Both the position numbers and the translations under genes were made by a program. The notes beneath the pieces were generated by a model, which saw nothing but the letters and a program-made list of their open reading frames with translations, was not told the origin of the DNA and did not search any database. DNA of 64,000 nt. It comes from Chloroflexota bacterium. GTDB taxonomy: Bacteria > Chloroflexota > Dehalococcoidia > Lucifugimonadales > UBA3495. The stretch spans positions 40,139 to 104,138 of the forward strand of contig JACZUF010000004.1 of assembly GCA_022573285.1 (NCBI GenBank), read 5' to 3'. Shown one piece after another: positions 1 through 40,686 of the stretch (position 1 is its first letter; the number at the start of each line of letters is the position of its first letter).

Positions 1-132
1 TGATTGGAAGCCTATTCGATTGGAATTTACCAAACCCTAGCCGGAATGCTTGATCGTGTCAACGTGGTGTTGACACCTAGAGCACCGATTTCGTTTGGCC
101 CAACCAATTATGAATAAGGCTCGTTTGAGCCT
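1..132. repeat. Left copy of long direct repeat (127 bp identical to 4566-4692; may extend left of the window)
   Basis: Base-by-base comparison: 1-127 identical to 4566-4692, mismatch at 128/4693, then gcct matches again at 129-132/4694-4697. Confidence 0.97.
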
Positions 133-140
133 TATTCATA
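109..140. terminator. Perfect 14-bp hairpin, 4-nt loop (tatgaataaggctc-gttt-gagccttattcata)
   Basis: Direct reading; lies just downstream of the 66-aa leftward CDS. Confidence 0.7.
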
Positions 141-157
141 TTTCTCCAGGCACGAAA

Positions 158-358
158 CTACGCGTGATCGGCGTTAATTGCCAGCTCAGTTGTCAATAGG
201 TCAACGAGACTTAACGCTACGTATTCACCCAATGCTGATGCCTGCTCGTGGTACCAGATTTTACGCAGGTATTCCTCCGAACTGAGACCAAATGACTCGG
301 CTCTTCCTTTCAGTATTCTCTGGAATCGCTCTTTTTCGCCCTCTGGTATTGCCTGCAT
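158..358 (-). CDS. Small hypothetical protein (66 aa)
   Basis: ORF with strong SD on minus strand (aaggagggcaag-ATG) and a downstream hairpin. Confidence 0.6.
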   Translation of the reverse strand: MQAIPEGEKERFQRILKGRAESFGLSSEEYLRKIWYHEQASALGEYVALSLVDLLTTELAINADHA

Positions 359-527
359 CTTGCCCTCCTTGCTTGGTCATGGGACAACCCTATTGTCTAT
401 GCCAGACAACTCAAAGTCGAGCGCGAACACTAACCTCATAATCAACGCAAAGTGGTCTTTACAACGCCGTAAGTATCAGTTAACATTAACCGTGAATGCT
501 GTAACTAAGCATGAACGGAGGTTCGCG

Positions 528-1319
528 ATGAGTACTCAAACCGATGAACAGTCGGGCGAGCGGAAGCGGAAGAGACCGGTTAGGTCTGAATATCTCTTTC
601 CAGCTTATGACCTCGGTGCCGCCCTAAGGGTCACTGAGCGGGTGGAGATGGACGGCGGCGGCACGCTTACTGAAGAAGCATTAGCAATAGCGCTGAAAGA
701 ATCGGCAAAAAGCAGCGCCTTCCGTCTACGCGCATTGACGGCGCGGCAGTTCGGACTTCTGCATAAAAATGCTGAGACTTTAAGTACCACGACGTTGGCA
801 AAGGCGATATTTAAACCTACAACAGGGCAAGAAAAAGCCGAAGCCCTGGCTTCGGCTTTCTTGAACATTCCCCTGTTCAAAGCGGTGGCTGATCGTTTTA
901 AGGGAACCCCCTTGCCGCAACAAGAAGCGCTGAGAAATATCCTGGAACGTGAATTCAAGGTTGAACACGATAGAGTGTCGACTGCGGACCGCATTCTTAT
1001 GGACTCAGCCCGAGAGGCTGGCGTAATGCGCGCGTCTGGAGGGAGTTCGTATCTCGCTCCGGGCGCAATCCAACCTCTGCAGGACGATCCGCTGGCTAAC
1101 CCTCCTGTGGACCCGCCTCTAGGTGAAGCGTCCACTGCTAGGCCGCAGGCTCAACCCGAATCAGCCGGAGGCCTTTTGGATATCAAGGAAGAGGACTTGG
1201 CAGATTTTGACGATAACGAGTTTAACAAGGTTTGGGACGTCCTCGGGATGATAGTGCGGAAGCGAGGACAACGAATGAAAGATCACGAAGCAGACGGGCA
1301 AGACCAAAACGCTAAATAG
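528..1319 (+). CDS. Hypothetical 263-aa protein, DUF5343/winged-helix-like N-terminal half with low-complexity acidic C-terminus
   Basis: ATG at 528 preceded by cggagg; helical repeat pattern RSEYLFPAYDLGAAL...SSAFRLRALTARQFGLL; ORF track extends upstream to 360 but 528 has the SD. Confidence 0.65.
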   Translation: MSTQTDEQSGERKRKRPVRSEYLFPAYDLGAALRVTERVEMDGGGTLTEEALAIALKESAKSSAFRLRALTARQFGLLHKNAETLSTTTLAKAIFKPTTGQEKAEALASAFLNIPLFKAVADRFKGTPLPQQEALRNILEREFKVEHDRVSTADRILMDSAREAGVMRASGGSSYLAPGAIQPLQDDPLANPPVDPPLGEASTARPQAQPESAGGLLDIKEEDLADFDDNEFNKVWDVLGMIVRKRGQRMKDHEADGQDQNAK

Positions 1320-1322
1320 AGA

Positions 1323-1355
1323 GGGCTGGCCATAGGTCGAAACTATGGCCAGCCC
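1323..1355 (+). terminator. Perfect 13-bp hairpin following the 263-aa CDS
   Basis: gggctggccatag-gtcgaaa-ctatggccagccc, 3 bp after the stop codon. Confidence 0.75.
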
Positions 1356-1365
1356 TTGTGATGAC

Positions 1366-1438
1366 GCCCCTGCGCTGGATCGCGGTCCTCCTCTAGCTAA
1401 GGCAGGGAACCTGGGTTCAATTCCCAGCAGGGGCACCA
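1366..1438 (+). other. tRNA-like sequence: perfect 7-bp acceptor stem, perfect T-arm, encoded ACCA; D/anticodon region poorly folded
   Basis: gcccctg (1366-1372) pairs with caggggc (1428-1434); ctggg-ttcaatt-cccag T-arm (1411-1427); ACCA 1435-1438. Confidence 0.6.
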
Positions 1439-1499
1439 AAACCGAATCGGGAACCGCTGACACCGTCAAGTAACAGCGGCCCCTACCAGGAGCGGAACT

Positions 1500-2558
1500 G
1501 TGCGGAACCACTCTGGCAATTATGATTATATCATTGGGCGGGATGCCCCACCGGTAGTCGCCGAGCTTAAATCCCTTTTCGAGCAACTGCCGGATGCAGA
1601 ATTACTCGCTCAACTAAAAGGACGCGTGCGGCGCGGCCCGAAAGGATATGAACCCGATATCCTCTGGCGCTGCTACGTCGCCTATTACTACCTTGGCCTT
1701 GACTCTGTCTCGGCATTGATCCGTTTATTGGAGGACAATCCCTTCATCGCTCAAGCCTGCGGCATTAGTTCACCTGAGAGTATTCCCAGCCAACCCACAT
1801 TCTCACGTTTCGGCACCAAACTCGCCAAACACACGGGGGAGTTTATTCTCGCCGTCAAAAATGTGCATCGTAACCTCACCAGAAAGCTCTACGCGACCCT
1901 TCCAGATTTTGGCAAGACAGTAGCAATTGACAGCACTGATGTGAAGGGGTGGTCGAACGCGATAAAAAAGGGTAAGAAGCGGTCAGGTAAGGTGCGGAGA
2001 CAAAAGCCCAGAGTCGGTAAAGTCTCGGATCCCGATGCCGGTTGGTGCGTCAAAAAGAACACCGAGGGAACCAAGAAATACGTGTTCGGCTACAAAATCC
2101 ACATTTTGGCCGATGCCAAGTATGAGCTTCCGATGGTCGTGGATATCAGCCCTGGAAACATGCACGATATCCGAAAGGCCTCAGCATTACTGCGTGAGGC
2201 TCGGACTGTCACAGGGAAGTTCGTTCCTGATTACGTCCTGGCGGACGCCGGTTACTCCAGTCTCCCTCTCTGGCGATTGATTAAAAACCAATACAGGGCA
2301 GAGCCGATAATTGATCCAAACCCAACTCATAAGGTAATCGTCGCAAGAAATAAGAAAACTTCTGAGTGGAAGAAAATCTACAGCCAAAGAACCTCAATTG
2401 AGCGTCTAAACGGCAGGCTGAAGGGGTTCAGGAAGCTAAACAGTGTGCGGGTCCGGGGTCGGTTTAAGGTACGGATTCACGCGATGATGTCGGTGATCGT
2501 CTGCCAAGCGTTGGCACTAGCGACGGAGAGCAGAGCATCGGTAAGAGGGGTTGCGTAA
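1500..2558 (+). CDS. DDE transposase, IS4/IS5/IS1182-like
   Basis: Motifs VAIDSTDVKGWSN, KYVFGYKIHILADAKYELPMVVDISPGNMHD, DYVLADAGYSS, SIERLNGRLKGFRKLNSVRVRG. Confidence 0.9.
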   Translation: MRNHSGNYDYIIGRDAPPVVAELKSLFEQLPDAELLAQLKGRVRRGPKGYEPDILWRCYVAYYYLGLDSVSALIRLLEDNPFIAQACGISSPESIPSQPTFSRFGTKLAKHTGEFILAVKNVHRNLTRKLYATLPDFGKTVAIDSTDVKGWSNAIKKGKKRSGKVRRQKPRVGKVSDPDAGWCVKKNTEGTKKYVFGYKIHILADAKYELPMVVDISPGNMHDIRKASALLREARTVTGKFVPDYVLADAGYSSLPLWRLIKNQYRAEPIIDPNPTHKVIVARNKKTSEWKKIYSQRTSIERLNGRLKGFRKLNSVRVRGRFKVRIHAMMSVIVCQALALATESRASVRGVA

Positions 2559-2660
2559 CAAAGCCGTTGCCCCGACGAGTTAGCCCAAATCCTCGCCTGA
2601 GTTTTCGCTCATTGAAGGTTATTTGACTGGGGAATGCCAAAAGGGGAACCCATGATCGGA

Positions 2661-2930
2661 CTATGTCCGATTGGACTCCGGTTCGTAAAAATGAGAGGTG
2701 AAATACGTCAGGATGCTGGCTGACCCGTGGAACACGCCTTCAGGTCCAGTCAGCCTAGGAAGAACTCCACCACGCTCCCGAACCGTAATGAATGGTATAC
2801 CAACGTTTCGCAACCGTCTCTCAACCTCCTTACAAGATTGGGATTCATCCAAAAATAAATAGTAGTTGTAGTTCACTCGTTCCAGCCTCCAGTCTCTATT
2901 AGTTGATTCGGTTGACCACCCTTTGGGCAA
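2661..2930 (-). CDS. Small thioredoxin/glutaredoxin-fold-like protein (up to 89 aa)
   Basis: NYYLFLDESQSCKEVERRLRNVGIPFITVRERGGVLPRLTGPEGVFHGSASILTYF resembles the Grx pattern; overlaps the upstream CDS by 32 nt. Confidence 0.5.
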   Translation of the reverse strand: MPKGWSTESTNRDWRLERVNYNYYLFLDESQSCKEVERRLRNVGIPFITVRERGGVLPRLTGPEGVFHGSASILTYFTSHFYEPESNRT

Positions 2931-4566
2931 AATCTATGATAGACAAGTCTTCGCGTATCACCTCCACATCTTCTGTTATTATTAAACTAGAAATGTAGCT
3001 CTGCAATCCAGCGAAGAGCTTACCTCTCTCACTCTCTTCCTCCCGCGCTACAACGGAGGGGTCGGGGGCCATGGCTCGCGCAGTGCGGGTCAGGATTTCG
3101 ATGCCAAATTTACCTAGTAATTCTGAAATGGCTTGACCTTTACTTAGATCAGTATTAGCGTCCTGAATCGATTGCAATTGATCGAAGGTCAAGTCTGACT
3201 TTAGAGAGGCGATCTGTGCGGGTTGGCATTGGAGAATGCCCGCTTCCTGCCAGGAATCAACAATCCTCTTGAAATTGGACACCAGAGTATCTCGCTCATC
3301 CGCTTCAGGATGTAGGATTACCACCTTAGCTCTGTCGAGACCCGCCTGCTGTAAAATTCGGTGGTGAGTGATTTCACGTTGCACCCCTCCCGACTCATTT
3401 CCCCGGAACGCTGGCCGATAAACTGCTAGGCCACTCGCTTGCGTTACTAGGGAGTAGTCCCGAGCTGTGATTTGCTCAAGAATTTGTTCCTGAAGCGCCT
3501 TCAGGGATGGCCAAGCTTGGCGAATCTTTTCATTTTGCGTCTGGTCCAAGTTCTCAATACCGATGTCGGCAATCTCTTGAGCAAACTGCGCCCAACTCGG
3601 GCCAAAGGCATCATCTGGCTCTTGGGGTGCCTCAAAGAGCAAATCGGAGGCCTCATCGCTAGGTAGTGGCCATCTCCACCCAAGTTGGGGGAGGTAGATG
3701 GATTGGTCTTCGAAATCAACAGTGAAATCAAACCTGAGTTCATCTATAGCAGTTGGCTCGATTACGATAAAGTGCTCACTCAATCGCACACACAGATCCT
3801 GGACTCGTTCAACAACCTGCTCAGCCAAGATTTTCTGTTCTTCGGTGCCTCGATTAAGTCGCCGAATCTCTGATATTGGATGTGCTACATAGACGAGCTT
3901 TTTGTCGGTACCGACAAAAAGGTTATGAAAGACTACGATCGGATGCTTGACTGCGAGCACAAAATGCGGAGACTCCGTAATTTCGGCAACCTTAGATGCT
4001 AGGACATTTTCGGTATTCCGCCAGTCAAGAATCCGGAGTAGTCTTAGTACGGCTGTGTGATAGTCATCAGGCTCATCGACATTATAAGAAAAAAGACCGT
4101 GTCGCCTGCTTAACCTGGCTTTGACATCGTATATATCGTCGACCAGAGTGAATACAATATCGGGGCGTTCCTTTAAGTTGGCGAGGCGCCCGAAATCGAT
4201 CCCAGACATGTATTCACGCTCTCCAAGATGGAACCAGGCGGCATGAAACGTCAGAATCACAGGTTGTTCTGATGCCAAAGATTCCCGTATTCCAATGAGG
4301 GCCTCATCAAAGGCCTTGGACCAAAATTCCATCAAAAGAGGTTTCGGAAGCTGAAGCACCTCCATGATGGTCACGTCGGCGGGCTGAAATCGGGGATGGA
4401 GCTTTGATACTGTGTCTCTAGCCAGCGGGACGAGGTGATCGTCTTCGAGAGAAATAATCGAAGGAGGAGATAGGTCATTGCGGGAGCACCAATCAGCATA
4501 CCGTCGAAGAGCCTGCTGAACCCCAGTTCCGGCCATGCCGTTGACGACAGCAAACCTTGCAGCCAT
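2899..4566 (-). CDS. 555-aa protein: adenylate-kinase-like N-terminus with degenerate P-loop plus nucleoside 2-deoxyribosyltransferase-like segments
   Basis: FAVVNGMAGTGVQQALRRYADW; VILTFHAAWFH...IDFGRLANLKERPDIVFTLVDDIYDVKARLSRR; LVYVAHPISEIRRLNRG...EHFIVIEPTAIDE; SGLAVYRPAFRGNESGGVQREITHH. Confidence 0.55.
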   Translation of the reverse strand: MAARFAVVNGMAGTGVQQALRRYADWCSRNDLSPPSIISLEDDHLVPLARDTVSKLHPRFQPADVTIMEVLQLPKPLLMEFWSKAFDEALIGIRESLASEQPVILTFHAAWFHLGEREYMSGIDFGRLANLKERPDIVFTLVDDIYDVKARLSRRHGLFSYNVDEPDDYHTAVLRLLRILDWRNTENVLASKVAEITESPHFVLAVKHPIVVFHNLFVGTDKKLVYVAHPISEIRRLNRGTEEQKILAEQVVERVQDLCVRLSEHFIVIEPTAIDELRFDFTVDFEDQSIYLPQLGWRWPLPSDEASDLLFEAPQEPDDAFGPSWAQFAQEIADIGIENLDQTQNEKIRQAWPSLKALQEQILEQITARDYSLVTQASGLAVYRPAFRGNESGGVQREITHHRILQQAGLDRAKVVILHPEADERDTLVSNFKRIVDSWQEAGILQCQPAQIASLKSDLTFDQLQSIQDANTDLSKGQAISELLGKFGIEILTRTARAMAPDPSVVAREEESERGKLFAGLQSYISSLIITEDVEVIREDLSIIDFAQRVVNRIN

Positions 4567-4697
4567 GATTGGAAGCCTATTCGATTGGAATTTACCAAAC
4601 CCTAGCCGGAATGCTTGATCGTGTCAACGTGGTGTTGACACCTAGAGCACCGATTTCGTTTGGCCCAACCAATTATGAATAAGGCTCGTTTGTGCCT
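4566..4697. repeat. Right copy of long direct repeat
   Basis: Same alignment; left edge coincides with the start codon of the 2899-4566 CDS. Confidence 0.97.
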
Positions 4698-4718
4698 AAG
4701 ACTGCCGTCTGCTACAAT
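4690..4718 (+). promoter_or_regulatory. Putative sigma70-type promoter TTGTGC-N17-TACAAT upstream of the SMP-30 gene
   Basis: -35 4690-4695, -10 4713-4718, 17-bp spacer. Confidence 0.5.
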
Positions 4719-4773
4719 CTGCGCCTAGATTAACCGCTCCCGGATTACCCACGAGTTACGGAGGAACCAGCCC

Positions 4774-5676
4774 ATGAGTTGGCGTTTCCAGTTGCTTAAC
4801 AAGCCCTATGGCAGCGTTACCGAAGGCCCGGTCTGGGACGGCGAGAACCTGCTCTTCACCCACATCTCCGCCAGCCGCATCATGCGCTGCGACGTCGAGA
4901 CCGGCGAGATCACCGTCTGGCGGGAGGGCACCAACCGCACCAACGGCCTGGCCCATGACGCGGAGGGGCGTCTCTTCGGCTGCTGCTCCGGAGGCCGCGC
5001 CATCCTGCGCTTCGACCCCGACGGCAGCAACGCGGTCATCGCCGACCAAGTCGAGGGCAAGAAACTGAACACTCCCAACGACCTGGCCGTCGACCGCCAG
5101 GGCCGAATCTGGTTCACCAACCCGTGGAACGCCACCAACATCGACGCCACCGAGGTCCAGGAACTCGACCACCGCGCCGTGCTCTGCGCCACTCCCCAGG
5201 CCGACGGCAGCTACTCGGTGGCCAGGGTGGAGACCGACAGCACGATGCCCAACGGCATCCTGGTGTCCATCGACGGCAGGACCCTCTACGTGGCCGAGAG
5301 CAACAGCGACGACCCCAGCATCGACCGGGAATTGCAGGCCTATCCCATCCGGGACGACGGCTCCCTGGGCCCCTACGATACCCTCCACGCCTTCGGCACC
5401 AACAAACGGGAGGCCCAGCGCGGCATCGACGGCATGTGCCTGGACCGGGAGGGCAACATCGTCGCCACCGCCGGTTGGCCCCAGTCCGGCCCCGGCCCCC
5501 TGATCTATGTGTTCGACCCCAAGGGGCGGGTCATCGAGACCCACCCGGTGCCCTGCATCCGGCCCACCAACTGCTGCTTCGGCGGCCCGGACCGCTCCAC
5601 CCTGTACGTGACCAGCGCCGAGGGGCACTTTTTCAAAGCAGAAACCGACATGGAAGGCTGGGCCCTATTCCCCTAG
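4774..5676 (+). CDS. SMP-30/gluconolactonase/LRE family protein
   Basis: SVTEGPVWDGENLLFTHISASRIMR..., NTPNDLAVDRQGRIWFTNP. Confidence 0.85.
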   Translation: MSWRFQLLNKPYGSVTEGPVWDGENLLFTHISASRIMRCDVETGEITVWREGTNRTNGLAHDAEGRLFGCCSGGRAILRFDPDGSNAVIADQVEGKKLNTPNDLAVDRQGRIWFTNPWNATNIDATEVQELDHRAVLCATPQADGSYSVARVETDSTMPNGILVSIDGRTLYVAESNSDDPSIDRELQAYPIRDDGSLGPYDTLHAFGTNKREAQRGIDGMCLDREGNIVATAGWPQSGPGPLIYVFDPKGRVIETHPVPCIRPTNCCFGGPDRSTLYVTSAEGHFFKAETDMEGWALFP

Positions 5677-5792
5677 CCGCCGGCGCAGCCGGGTTCCCAT
5701 ATAACAGCAAGGGCGATAACCATGACTTTCAGTTGGCAGCTAAGTCTGAAGGGCAACGGCCGGGGTTCCATGCGACAGCGAGAGCGAAAACC

Positions 5793-6164
5793 ATGACTTT
5801 GAGCGGACGAGGCAGCCTGAGCGACCACGGTTTCACGCGGGCGCAACTGCGCCAGGGGGGAGGCCGCGGCAACGGCAACGACCACTTCGACGAGTTGATC
5901 GGGGCCACCGAACTTTTCGTCTACCAGACGCCCAACAAGAATCCCAAGGGCTTCGAATCGCTGAAGCTGTTCCTGGAAGCGGCCGAATGCGAGTTGATCT
6001 TCACCGTGGACGTCCCGCCGGAACTGCGGAACTACGAGGCCTTTCGCATCACCCACAAATCCGGCGAAAAGATTCCCGACTCGGTGCTGCGCCGCTGCCA
6101 CTCCTGGGCCCACGGCCGCAACTTCCTCCACAGCTTCTTCAAGCCCATGTACGGAGGCCGCTAG
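5793..6164 (+). CDS. Hypothetical protein (123 aa)
   Basis: MTLSGRGSLSDHGFTRAQLRQ...; frame continues the longer ORF 5124-6164, whose N-terminal part is out of frame with the SMP-30 gene and looks spurious. Confidence 0.5.
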   Translation: MTLSGRGSLSDHGFTRAQLRQGGGRGNGNDHFDELIGATELFVYQTPNKNPKGFESLKLFLEAAECELIFTVDVPPELRNYEAFRITHKSGEKIPDSVLRRCHSWAHGRNFLHSFFKPMYGGR

Positions 6165-8774: not shown

Positions 8775-8849
8775 TGGTGGGCCCGGTTGGTATCGAACCA
8801 ACTACCAGTCGGTTATGAGCCGACTGCTCTACCAATGAGCTACGGGCCC
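8775..8849 (-). tRNA. tRNA with CAT anticodon (Met or Ile2)
   Basis: gggcccgtagctcattggtagagcagtcggctCATaaccgactggtagttggttcgataccaaccgggcccACCA; cloverleaf with encoded CCA. Confidence 0.93.
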
Positions 8850-33621: not shown

Positions 33622-33696
33622 TGGTCGGGGTGGGCAGAATCGAACTGCCGACCTCCTGCTCCCAAAGCAGGCGCCCTACCGCTGGGCTACACCCCG
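33622..33696 (-). tRNA. tRNA-Pro(TGG)
   Basis: cggggtgtagcccagcggtagggcgcctgctTTGGgagcaggaggtcggcagttcgattctgcccaccccgACCA. Confidence 0.93.
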
Positions 33697-33728
33697 GCTG
33701 ACGAAGAAGGGTGGGAATGGGGCTAAAG

Positions 33729-33804
33729 TGGTACCCCCGGAGAGGGTCGAACTCTCGTCCCCGGCTCCGGAGGCCGGTACTCTAATCCACTGAGCTACGG
33801 GGGC
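33729..33804 (-). tRNA. tRNA-Arg(CCG)
   Basis: gcccccgtagctcagtggattagagtaccggcctCCGgagccggggacgagagttcgaccctctccgggggtACCA. Confidence 0.9.
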
Positions 33805-39624: not shown

Positions 39625-40686
39625 GTGCAGTCGCCAACCATCTCCCCGGACCTAACCATCGCTGTCGTGGGCGCCACCGGCGCGGTGGGCGCCGAATTTC
39701 TCCGCATCGTGGAAAGCCGCTATACCAGCCTGCCCAAGCTGAAGTTGCTGGCATCCAGCCGCTCGGCCGGCAAGCGCATCAGCGTGGGCGGGAAAGAACT
39801 GGTGGTGGAGGAAGCCACTGAAAGGTCCTTCGACGGCGTGGACGTGGCCTTCATCTCGGCCAGCTCGGAGGTCAGCCGGCGGCTCGCCCCGGCGGCGGTG
39901 GCCGCTGGAGCAGTGGTCATCGACGATGGTTCCGAATTCCGCATGGATGACACGGTCCCCCTGGTGGTGCCCGAGGTTAACGGCGCGGACGTCGAATGGC
40001 ACCAGGGGATCATCGCCATCCCCAACTGCTCCACCACTCCTTTGGTGATGGCCGCCCACCCGCTGCACCAGGTCAACCCCATCAAACGGATCGTGGCCGA
40101 CACCTACCAGTCGGTCTCCGGAGCCGGCGGCGGGGCCATGACCGAACTGAGAGAACAATCGGAGCGGCTCCTTGACGCCGACTCCAGCACCAGCAAGTCC
40201 GGCAAGGGTCAGATCGCCTACAACGTGGTCCCCCAGATCGACCGGTTCCTGGACACCGGCTACACCTTCGAAGAGCAGAAGATGCGGCAGGAATCCCAGA
40301 AGATAATGCACGCCCCGGACTTGAAGATCTCCGCCACCTGCGTGCGGGTCCCGGTGTACATCTCCCATTCCGCCTCGGTGCACATCGAATTCACCCGGCC
40401 CATGCCCGTGGCAGAGGCCAGAGAGCTTTTGGCGGCCATGCCCGGAGTTACCGTGCTAGACAACCCGGAGGCGGGCGAATACCCCATGCCCTGGGACGTG
40501 GCCGGTGAGGACGATGTTTTCGTGGGGCGCATCCGGCAAGACCTTTCCCATCCCAACGGACTGGTGCTGTGGATCGTTTCCGACAACCTGCGCAAAGGCG
40601 CGGCGCTCAACTCGCTCCAGATTGCCGAAGAGCTGGTCTCCCGGGGCCGGTTGAAGCCAAAGCACGCCAGCGGAGTGACCGGCTAG
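39625..40686 (+). CDS. asd: Aspartate-semialdehyde dehydrogenase
   Basis: IAVVGATGAVGAEFLRI, GIIAIPNCSTTPLVMA, SATCVRVPVYISHS. Confidence 0.95.
   Translation: MQSPTISPDLTIAVVGATGAVGAEFLRIVESRYTSLPKLKLLASSRSAGKRISVGGKELVVEEATERSFDGVDVAFISASSEVSRRLAPAAVAAGAVVIDDGSEFRMDDTVPLVVPEVNGADVEWHQGIIAIPNCSTTPLVMAAHPLHQVNPIKRIVADTYQSVSGAGGGAMTELREQSERLLDADSSTSKSGKGQIAYNVVPQIDRFLDTGYTFEEQKMRQESQKIMHAPDLKISATCVRVPVYISHSASVHIEFTRPMPVAEARELLAAMPGVTVLDNPEAGEYPMPWDVAGEDDVFVGRIRQDLSHPNGLVLWIVSDNLRKGAALNSLQIAEELVSRGRLKPKHASGVTG

Follow-up and report, generated by a model that had tools for sequence, protein, structure and literature searches.

A DDE transposon with passenger genes in a Chloroflexota genome, the probable assembly origin of its 127-bp flanking repeat, and a recurrent tRNA-like sequence upstream of its transposase

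We analyzed a stretch of 64,000 nucleotides from a Chloroflexota bacterium (assembly GCA_022573285.1, contig JACZUF010000004.1, positions 40,139 to 104,138 of the forward strand), referred to here as the window, which carries a mobile genetic element near its start. The original prediction for this locus had described an AT-richer accessory module at 1-4697, carrying a transposase, a transfer RNA (tRNA)-like sequence, and four genes unlike the surrounding metabolic chromosome between the two copies of a 127-base-pair (bp) direct repeat. The segment is indeed AT-richer, with a GC content of ~0.50 vs 0.60-0.68 on its right side. The transposase gene lies at 1500-2558 (+ strand) and encodes a protein of 352 amino acids (aa) matching Pfam DDE_Tnp_1 (2.5e-24), and the tRNA-like sequence is found at 1366-1438 (+ strand). 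Beside the transposase, three open reading frames (ORFs) are credible: a 66-aa ORF without a family (158-358, - strand), a 263-aa ORF that adjoins the transposase and has no family match (ORF-A, 528-1319, + strand), and a gene for a 555-aa protein (2899-4566, - strand). The fourth gene of the prediction, an 89-aa ORF at 2661-2930, is doubtful.

The element itself spans 127-4687 on the + strand and is 4,561 bp long. Its ends are 17-bp terminal inverted repeats, GAGCCTTATTCATATTT on the left (127-143, + strand) and GAGCCTTATTCATAATT, on the - strand, on the right (4671-4687), which match at 16 of 17 positions. At the outer borders, the left flank reads AGCC-GTTT-GAGCC and the right end reads GGCTC-GTTT-GTGCC. 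The right copy of GTTT lies at 4688-4691 and the left copy at contig positions 39913-39916, outside the window. The presence of GTTT on each outer side, and again in an end-to-end joint described below, places the element at 127-4687, bounded by its 17-bp inverted repeats and a 4-bp target-site duplication. The insertion is flanked by a signal peptidase gene, which lies upstream and beyond the window, and by an SMP-30-like gene at 4774-5676; the two genes were named by reading their sequences and are adjacent to each other in genomes of the same genus. A query made of the joined flanks with a single GTTT aligned through uninterrupted at all 9 same-genus loci, at 71-83% identity, with GCCGTTTGT conserved. 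These empty sites show that GTTT is the duplicated sequence and that only this lineage has the insertion, and the view of the segment as an inserted accessory module therefore held, since relatives carry the site without the cargo. The copy number of the element in the genome is one. Thus, a 4,561-bp DDE transposon has inserted between the signal peptidase and SMP-30-like genes, duplicating GTTT. It has the inverted repeats, the target duplication with an empty site, the DDE site, and the cargo differing between members that characterize a transposon or insertion sequence (IS) with passenger genes. A genomic island integrated at a tRNA gene fits poorly, as no integrase was found among the ORFs searched and the tRNA-like sequence is internal, not terminal.

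We then considered the 127-bp repeat. Positions 1-127 are identical to 4566-4692, as had been predicted, and the match is exact and ends at exactly 127 bp on the right side. On the left side its extent is bounded by a gap: window base 1 corresponds to position 40139 of the contig, directly after exactly 100 N (40039-40138), which is the only run of N in this 130,826-bp contig (C41) of an 81-contig assembly. Window positions 122-248 are also identical to the final 127 bases to the left of the gap (C41 39912-40038), again over exactly 127 bp. Among the contig starts sampled, overlaps at other contig ends stop at base 127 as well, namely between the starts of C3 and C7 and between the start of C9 and the reverse strand of C41. 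At a break, de Bruijn assembly produces overlaps whose length equals the graph k, for which 127 is a common maximum setting. Two exact 127-bp overlaps at one gap, together with the C3/C7 and C9/C41 overlaps, point to the assembler k as the source of the repeat.

The evidence strongly suggests that a short-read assembly at k = 127 would have met a branch point at the element ends, which accounts for the broken contigs, the gap of 100 N, and both 127-bp overlaps. In the assembly graph, the k-mer at 4566-4692 continues with either T, into the right flank, or A (window 128), into the left part of the element, while the k-mer at 122-248 is preceded by either C, from the left flank, or T (window 121), from the right end of the element. 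These two branching k-mers give four joins: the left flank joined to the element, the element joined to the right flank, the body of the element, and its end joined to its own start. We read positions 1-127 as a k-mer overlap consisting of the right end of the element and CGTTTG, with which the contig starts at a graph branch after the gap, and positions 4566-4692, identical in sequence, as the place where the element truly ends on the right, with the next 5 bp included. A transposon with a repeat of assembly origin is, overall, very probable.

The alternative is a true biological duplication, in which the two copies would be attachment sites or a recombination unit around exchangeable cassettes. 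Identical copies do enclose accessory genes and a transposase, but this explanation is highly improbable given that the first copy begins at a contig edge after 100 N, the same gap is spanned by another 127-bp overlap, and no integrase accompanies the copies. In addition, the genome holds no further copies of the repeat, around other cargo or elsewhere, and the empty sites in relatives hold GTTT only instead of the anticipated single 127-bp copy. On the basis of the k-mer overlaps and the empty sites, the recombination or attachment-site reading was rejected. In place of a long flanking duplication, the real repeats are the 17-bp inverted repeats and the 4-bp GTTT. The proposed exchange of cassettes stands insofar as sister elements carry different cargo, but the 127-bp repeat, being a k-mer overlap, is not the unit of exchange. 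Repeats of exact length at contig edges can thus mimic recombination units where they may in fact be the trace of an end-joined transposon.

That trace lies at window positions 1-248, which read as a joint of right end, GTTT, and left end, ...AATTATGAATAAGGCTC-GTTT-GAGCCTTATTCATATTT..., with a copy of the right terminal inverted repeat, AATTATGAATAAGGCTC, at 106-122 (- strand) and the GTTT spacer at 123-126. The spacer is identical to the 4-bp target duplication. Because the contig starts with this joint, the assembled reads appear to hold the element joined end to end, which may be an excised or copied-out circle or a tandem dimer, known here from the assembly alone. IS30 forms minicircles and tandem dimers with ends joined at 2-bp spacing (PMC9333248), and in other copy-out families (IS2 type) the ends are likewise joined by a short spacer (PMC3299598). 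A stable chromosomal tandem dimer (element-GTTT-element), as opposed to a free circle, would yield the same assembly graph and has a precedent in IS30, for which both forms are described (PMC9333248). The joint is compatible with circle and dimer alike and gives direct support to neither, and we regard the dimer as a plausible form that falls somewhat short of probable.

The end-joint motif had no match in any other genome among the GTDB contigs, nor in the IMG/VR viral contigs, which weighs against an end-joined element, as does the possibility that the junction is a chimera or was created by the assembly, with the chromosome holding one simple copy. Chimeras can occur in metagenomic short-read assemblies, and the junction sequence, seen nowhere else in these collections, is a perfect 14-bp hairpin. 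Such an origin is nevertheless improbable, because k = 127 demands coverage over 121 consecutive positions of the joint, and hence several independent reads, and because the spacer is exactly the 4-bp duplication.

To place the element, we compared its transposase with known families. The protein has the domains DDE_Tnp_1 and DUF772, and residues D144, D249, and E301 are invariant across the 11 transposases aligned. The best NCBIfam model was IS1182 (NF033551; 1.6e-37), with 129.6 bits vs a cut-off of 270, followed by the IS5 models NF033581 and NF033580 (5.5e-23 and 1.6e-18), the best of which gave 81.7 bits vs a cut-off of 140. As both scores are under the NCBIfam cut-offs, the transposase belongs to neither IS1182 nor IS5 by those rules, and the transposon falls into an unnamed group close to IS1182/IS5. 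Of 295 genomes in the class, 8, its own among them, encode relatives of the transposase, and a profile search with a looser limit found them in 16 of 393. Nothing useful was obtained from plasmids and viral contigs, where the only matches were at 25% identity; the inverted-repeat motif was present in 38 viral contigs, probably by chance, since none of them held a related transposase.

Four relatives have variants of the same inverted repeat (0-3 changes) and 4-bp duplications of their own. These sister elements are L022 (4159-7049, duplication CGTT), L023 (3688-6303, AATG), L024 (3364-7152, AATT), and L028 (3988-6880, TACT), the last of which is inserted within a gene for a metallo-beta-lactamase fold, as its sequence reads. 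The transposase frame of L028 is split in two (5067-6100) and this copy is probably inactive. A second inverted-repeat subgroup comprises L026 (4047-7151), L106 (3280-7426), and L105 (about 217-2777), with a core like TTGCGAAACT (TGTGCGAAAC in L106). The flanking duplications of L026 and L106 are 6 bp, not 4 bp. In L026 (7134-7175), AAATAC separates the right inverted repeat from a further inverted-repeat-like sequence, GAGCTTGTTGCGCAACTC, which could be the end of another element or the remnant of a tandem copy adjoining this one.

Specialists may be surprised by the tRNA-like sequence, which recurs in related elements. The sequence at 1366-1438, inside the element and just 5' of the transposase gene, has an acceptor stem paired at 7/7 positions, a T arm paired at 5/5, a TTCAATT loop, a discriminator A, and an encoded CCA, while its D and anticodon arms are degenerate. 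It does not form the cloverleaf of a functional tRNA, and no tRNA was recognized there by ARAGORN or the Rfam tRNA model, in keeping with the prediction of a tRNA-like sequence. A tRNA or tRNA-like sequence lies directly upstream of the transposase gene at 8 of 13 related loci. Besides the one described here, these are tRNA-Leu(tag) in L022, tRNA-Leu(taa) in L026, tRNA-Ser(gga) in L028, tRNA-Val(cac) in L106, tRNA-Ala(ggc) in L111, a degenerate tRNA-like sequence in L105, and a T arm with acceptor end, cut by the contig start, in L025. Each lies on the same strand as the transposase, with its end ~60-90 bp 5' of the transposase start. Among control ORFs, 3 of 493 (~0.4-0.6%) were preceded by a same-strand tRNA at a distance of no more than 130 bp, one of the three being the L106 transposase itself, and a strict test for acceptor and T arms gave 1 match in 5.1 Mb of shuffled sequence. 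In a tree of the 13 transposases, the tRNA trait is scattered over the branches, with a minimum of 3 changes (4 by parsimony). The tRNA-Leu sequences of L022 and L026 are 74 nt long and have no long variable arm. Bacterial tRNA-Leu usually has a long variable arm, and its absence from both makes decoding doubtful. In two tRNA-like members the acceptor and T arms are perfect and the other parts degenerate, a pattern suggestive of a site of RNA processing between two genes of the transposon.

The surroundings of these sequences also recur. In the window, a 15-bp hairpin lies between the ORF-A stop and the tRNA-like sequence (1321-1356, + strand; fold -30.7 kcal/mol, z -7.8), and another hairpin lies in the transposase leader (1449-1483, + strand), with similar hairpins at the same place in several relatives (moderate evidence). 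The order of ORF end, hairpin, and tRNA was found in all seven complete tRNA-bearing cases. The ORF-A proteins are not all homologous: those of L022 and L028 are (41%), that of L105 has a HARE-HTH domain, and that of L111 has a DUF5343 domain, while winged helix-turn-helix (wHTH) proteins are encoded at the equivalent place in some sister elements. In the mechanism we propose, ORF-A and the transposase would form a gene pair, with a hairpin and the tRNA or tRNA-like sequence between them and, in many cases, a second hairpin in the leader. The tRNA-like part would be a processing site for RNase P and tRNA 3'-end enzymes, splitting the shared transcript in two. Minimal substrates of RNase P have been described (PMC11221534). 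A processing site that cuts the shared ORF-A/transposase transcript is, tentatively, the most likely role of the tRNA-like part.

For the family as a whole, the proposal is a little more tentative still. In these DDE transposons, the tRNA or tRNA-like sequence that separates the transposase gene from a DNA-binding accessory gene may punctuate the transcript, with host tRNA-processing enzymes cutting the shared mRNA and setting transposase expression, and at least two members without a tRNA may instead have a sigma-70-type promoter. These two, L024 and L104, have an 11/12 sigma-70-type match at that place, where ~0.6-0.7 such matches are expected by chance. At 6130-6200 of L024, the strong promoter match overlaps two operator-like CCATAC/GTATGG palindromes upstream of the transposase. 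Several points weigh against the punctuation model. The family is rare and the tRNA pattern is based on 13 related loci, five of which have no tRNA or tRNA-like sequence. The transposase leaders fold somewhat better than controls (Mann-Whitney p = 0.01), but the excess is only moderate, and the leader hairpins were judged by folding scores as the sequence alignment was too poor for covariation counting.

The tRNA and tRNA-like sequences could also be captured host tRNAs or remnants of insertion sites, with no function in the element. Mobile DNA commonly holds tRNA genes, and the five members without such a sequence are compatible with this. However, the sequences lie inside the inverted repeats wherever repeats were found, they keep the transposase strand and the ~60-90 bp distance in every deep branch, and the acceptor and T arms are perfect in the two otherwise degenerate cases, so that we consider a functionless capture rather unlikely. 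Much less likely again is a structured non-coding RNA, made of the tRNA-like part and the two hairpins, that acts in transposition itself. The arrangement of hairpin, tRNA-like sequence, and hairpin does recur beside the transposase in several elements, but its sequence is not conserved, the same five members do without the tRNA-like part, and we know of no DDE element of this kind that uses an RNA guide. Returning to transcript processing, a small and defined set of elements with a tRNA-like sequence between two transposon genes may offer a case of transposase control through tRNA maturation. A literature search for tRNA genes inside transposons found no report of such a layout, which does not prove its absence.

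The 555-aa gene near the right end is probably passenger cargo. Its protein has no confident family and had no homologue in a scan of genome contigs or, by sequence, among solved structures, while a whole-genome search gave two weak homologues, L029 (in two frames) and L030 (partial), the latter matching a nucleoside deoxyribosyltransferase model. The 555-aa protein and its L030 relative both start with a glycine-rich loop that, on reading, resembles a nucleotide-binding site. The closest relative, L029 (5701-7306; 35-41% identity), lies outside any recognized transposon and is broken into two frames. A structure prediction made without an alignment gave a mean predicted local distance difference test (pLDDT) score of 39, too poor for use. 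The original prediction had suggested a possible defence cassette; none of the five ORFs of the element had a PADLOC match at E <= 1, and a defence island was rejected on this ground. For the 555-aa protein, a metabolic and a defence role are equally possible. Sister elements carry different cargo, including a PIN-like/DUF433 pair in L023, a DUF4145 protein in L028, and proteins without a family in L022 and L024. The L023 pair (3926-5069) resembles a toxin-antitoxin module.

Elsewhere in the window, three ordinary tRNA genes (Met, Pro, and Arg; 8775-8849 and 33622-33804) are unrelated to the element. Upstream of the window, L003 5867-8321 holds two adjacent paralogous lipoprotein-like genes of ~400 aa with a Thr-Pro-rich stretch and 79-88% DNA identity.

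The element resembles several known systems and differs from each. It is like IS1182 in its best transposase model and in the DDE_Tnp_1 and DUF772 domains, but its transposase has 352 aa vs 488 aa in the model, and it carries passenger genes and a tRNA-like sequence. IS5 itself makes a 4-bp target duplication, and the element shares this and has the IS5 models as its second-best matches, but it is much longer and has cargo. As in transporter IS, which are IS with passenger genes, there is one transposase with short inverted repeats, a target duplication, and unrelated cargo genes; what sets the element apart is that a tRNA or tRNA-like sequence separates the transposase from a recurring ORF-A. 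The ends joined by a short spacer recall the copy-out/paste-in elements IS30 and IS2, although here only the joint is seen, from the assembly, and the transposase is of another family. Finally, a tRNA-like fold at a transcript boundary is shared with mitochondrial tRNA punctuation and mascRNA, whose model 1366-1438 matches weakly (26.8 bits, under the cut-off of 42.5), whereas the present case is a bacterial transposon known from its sequence.

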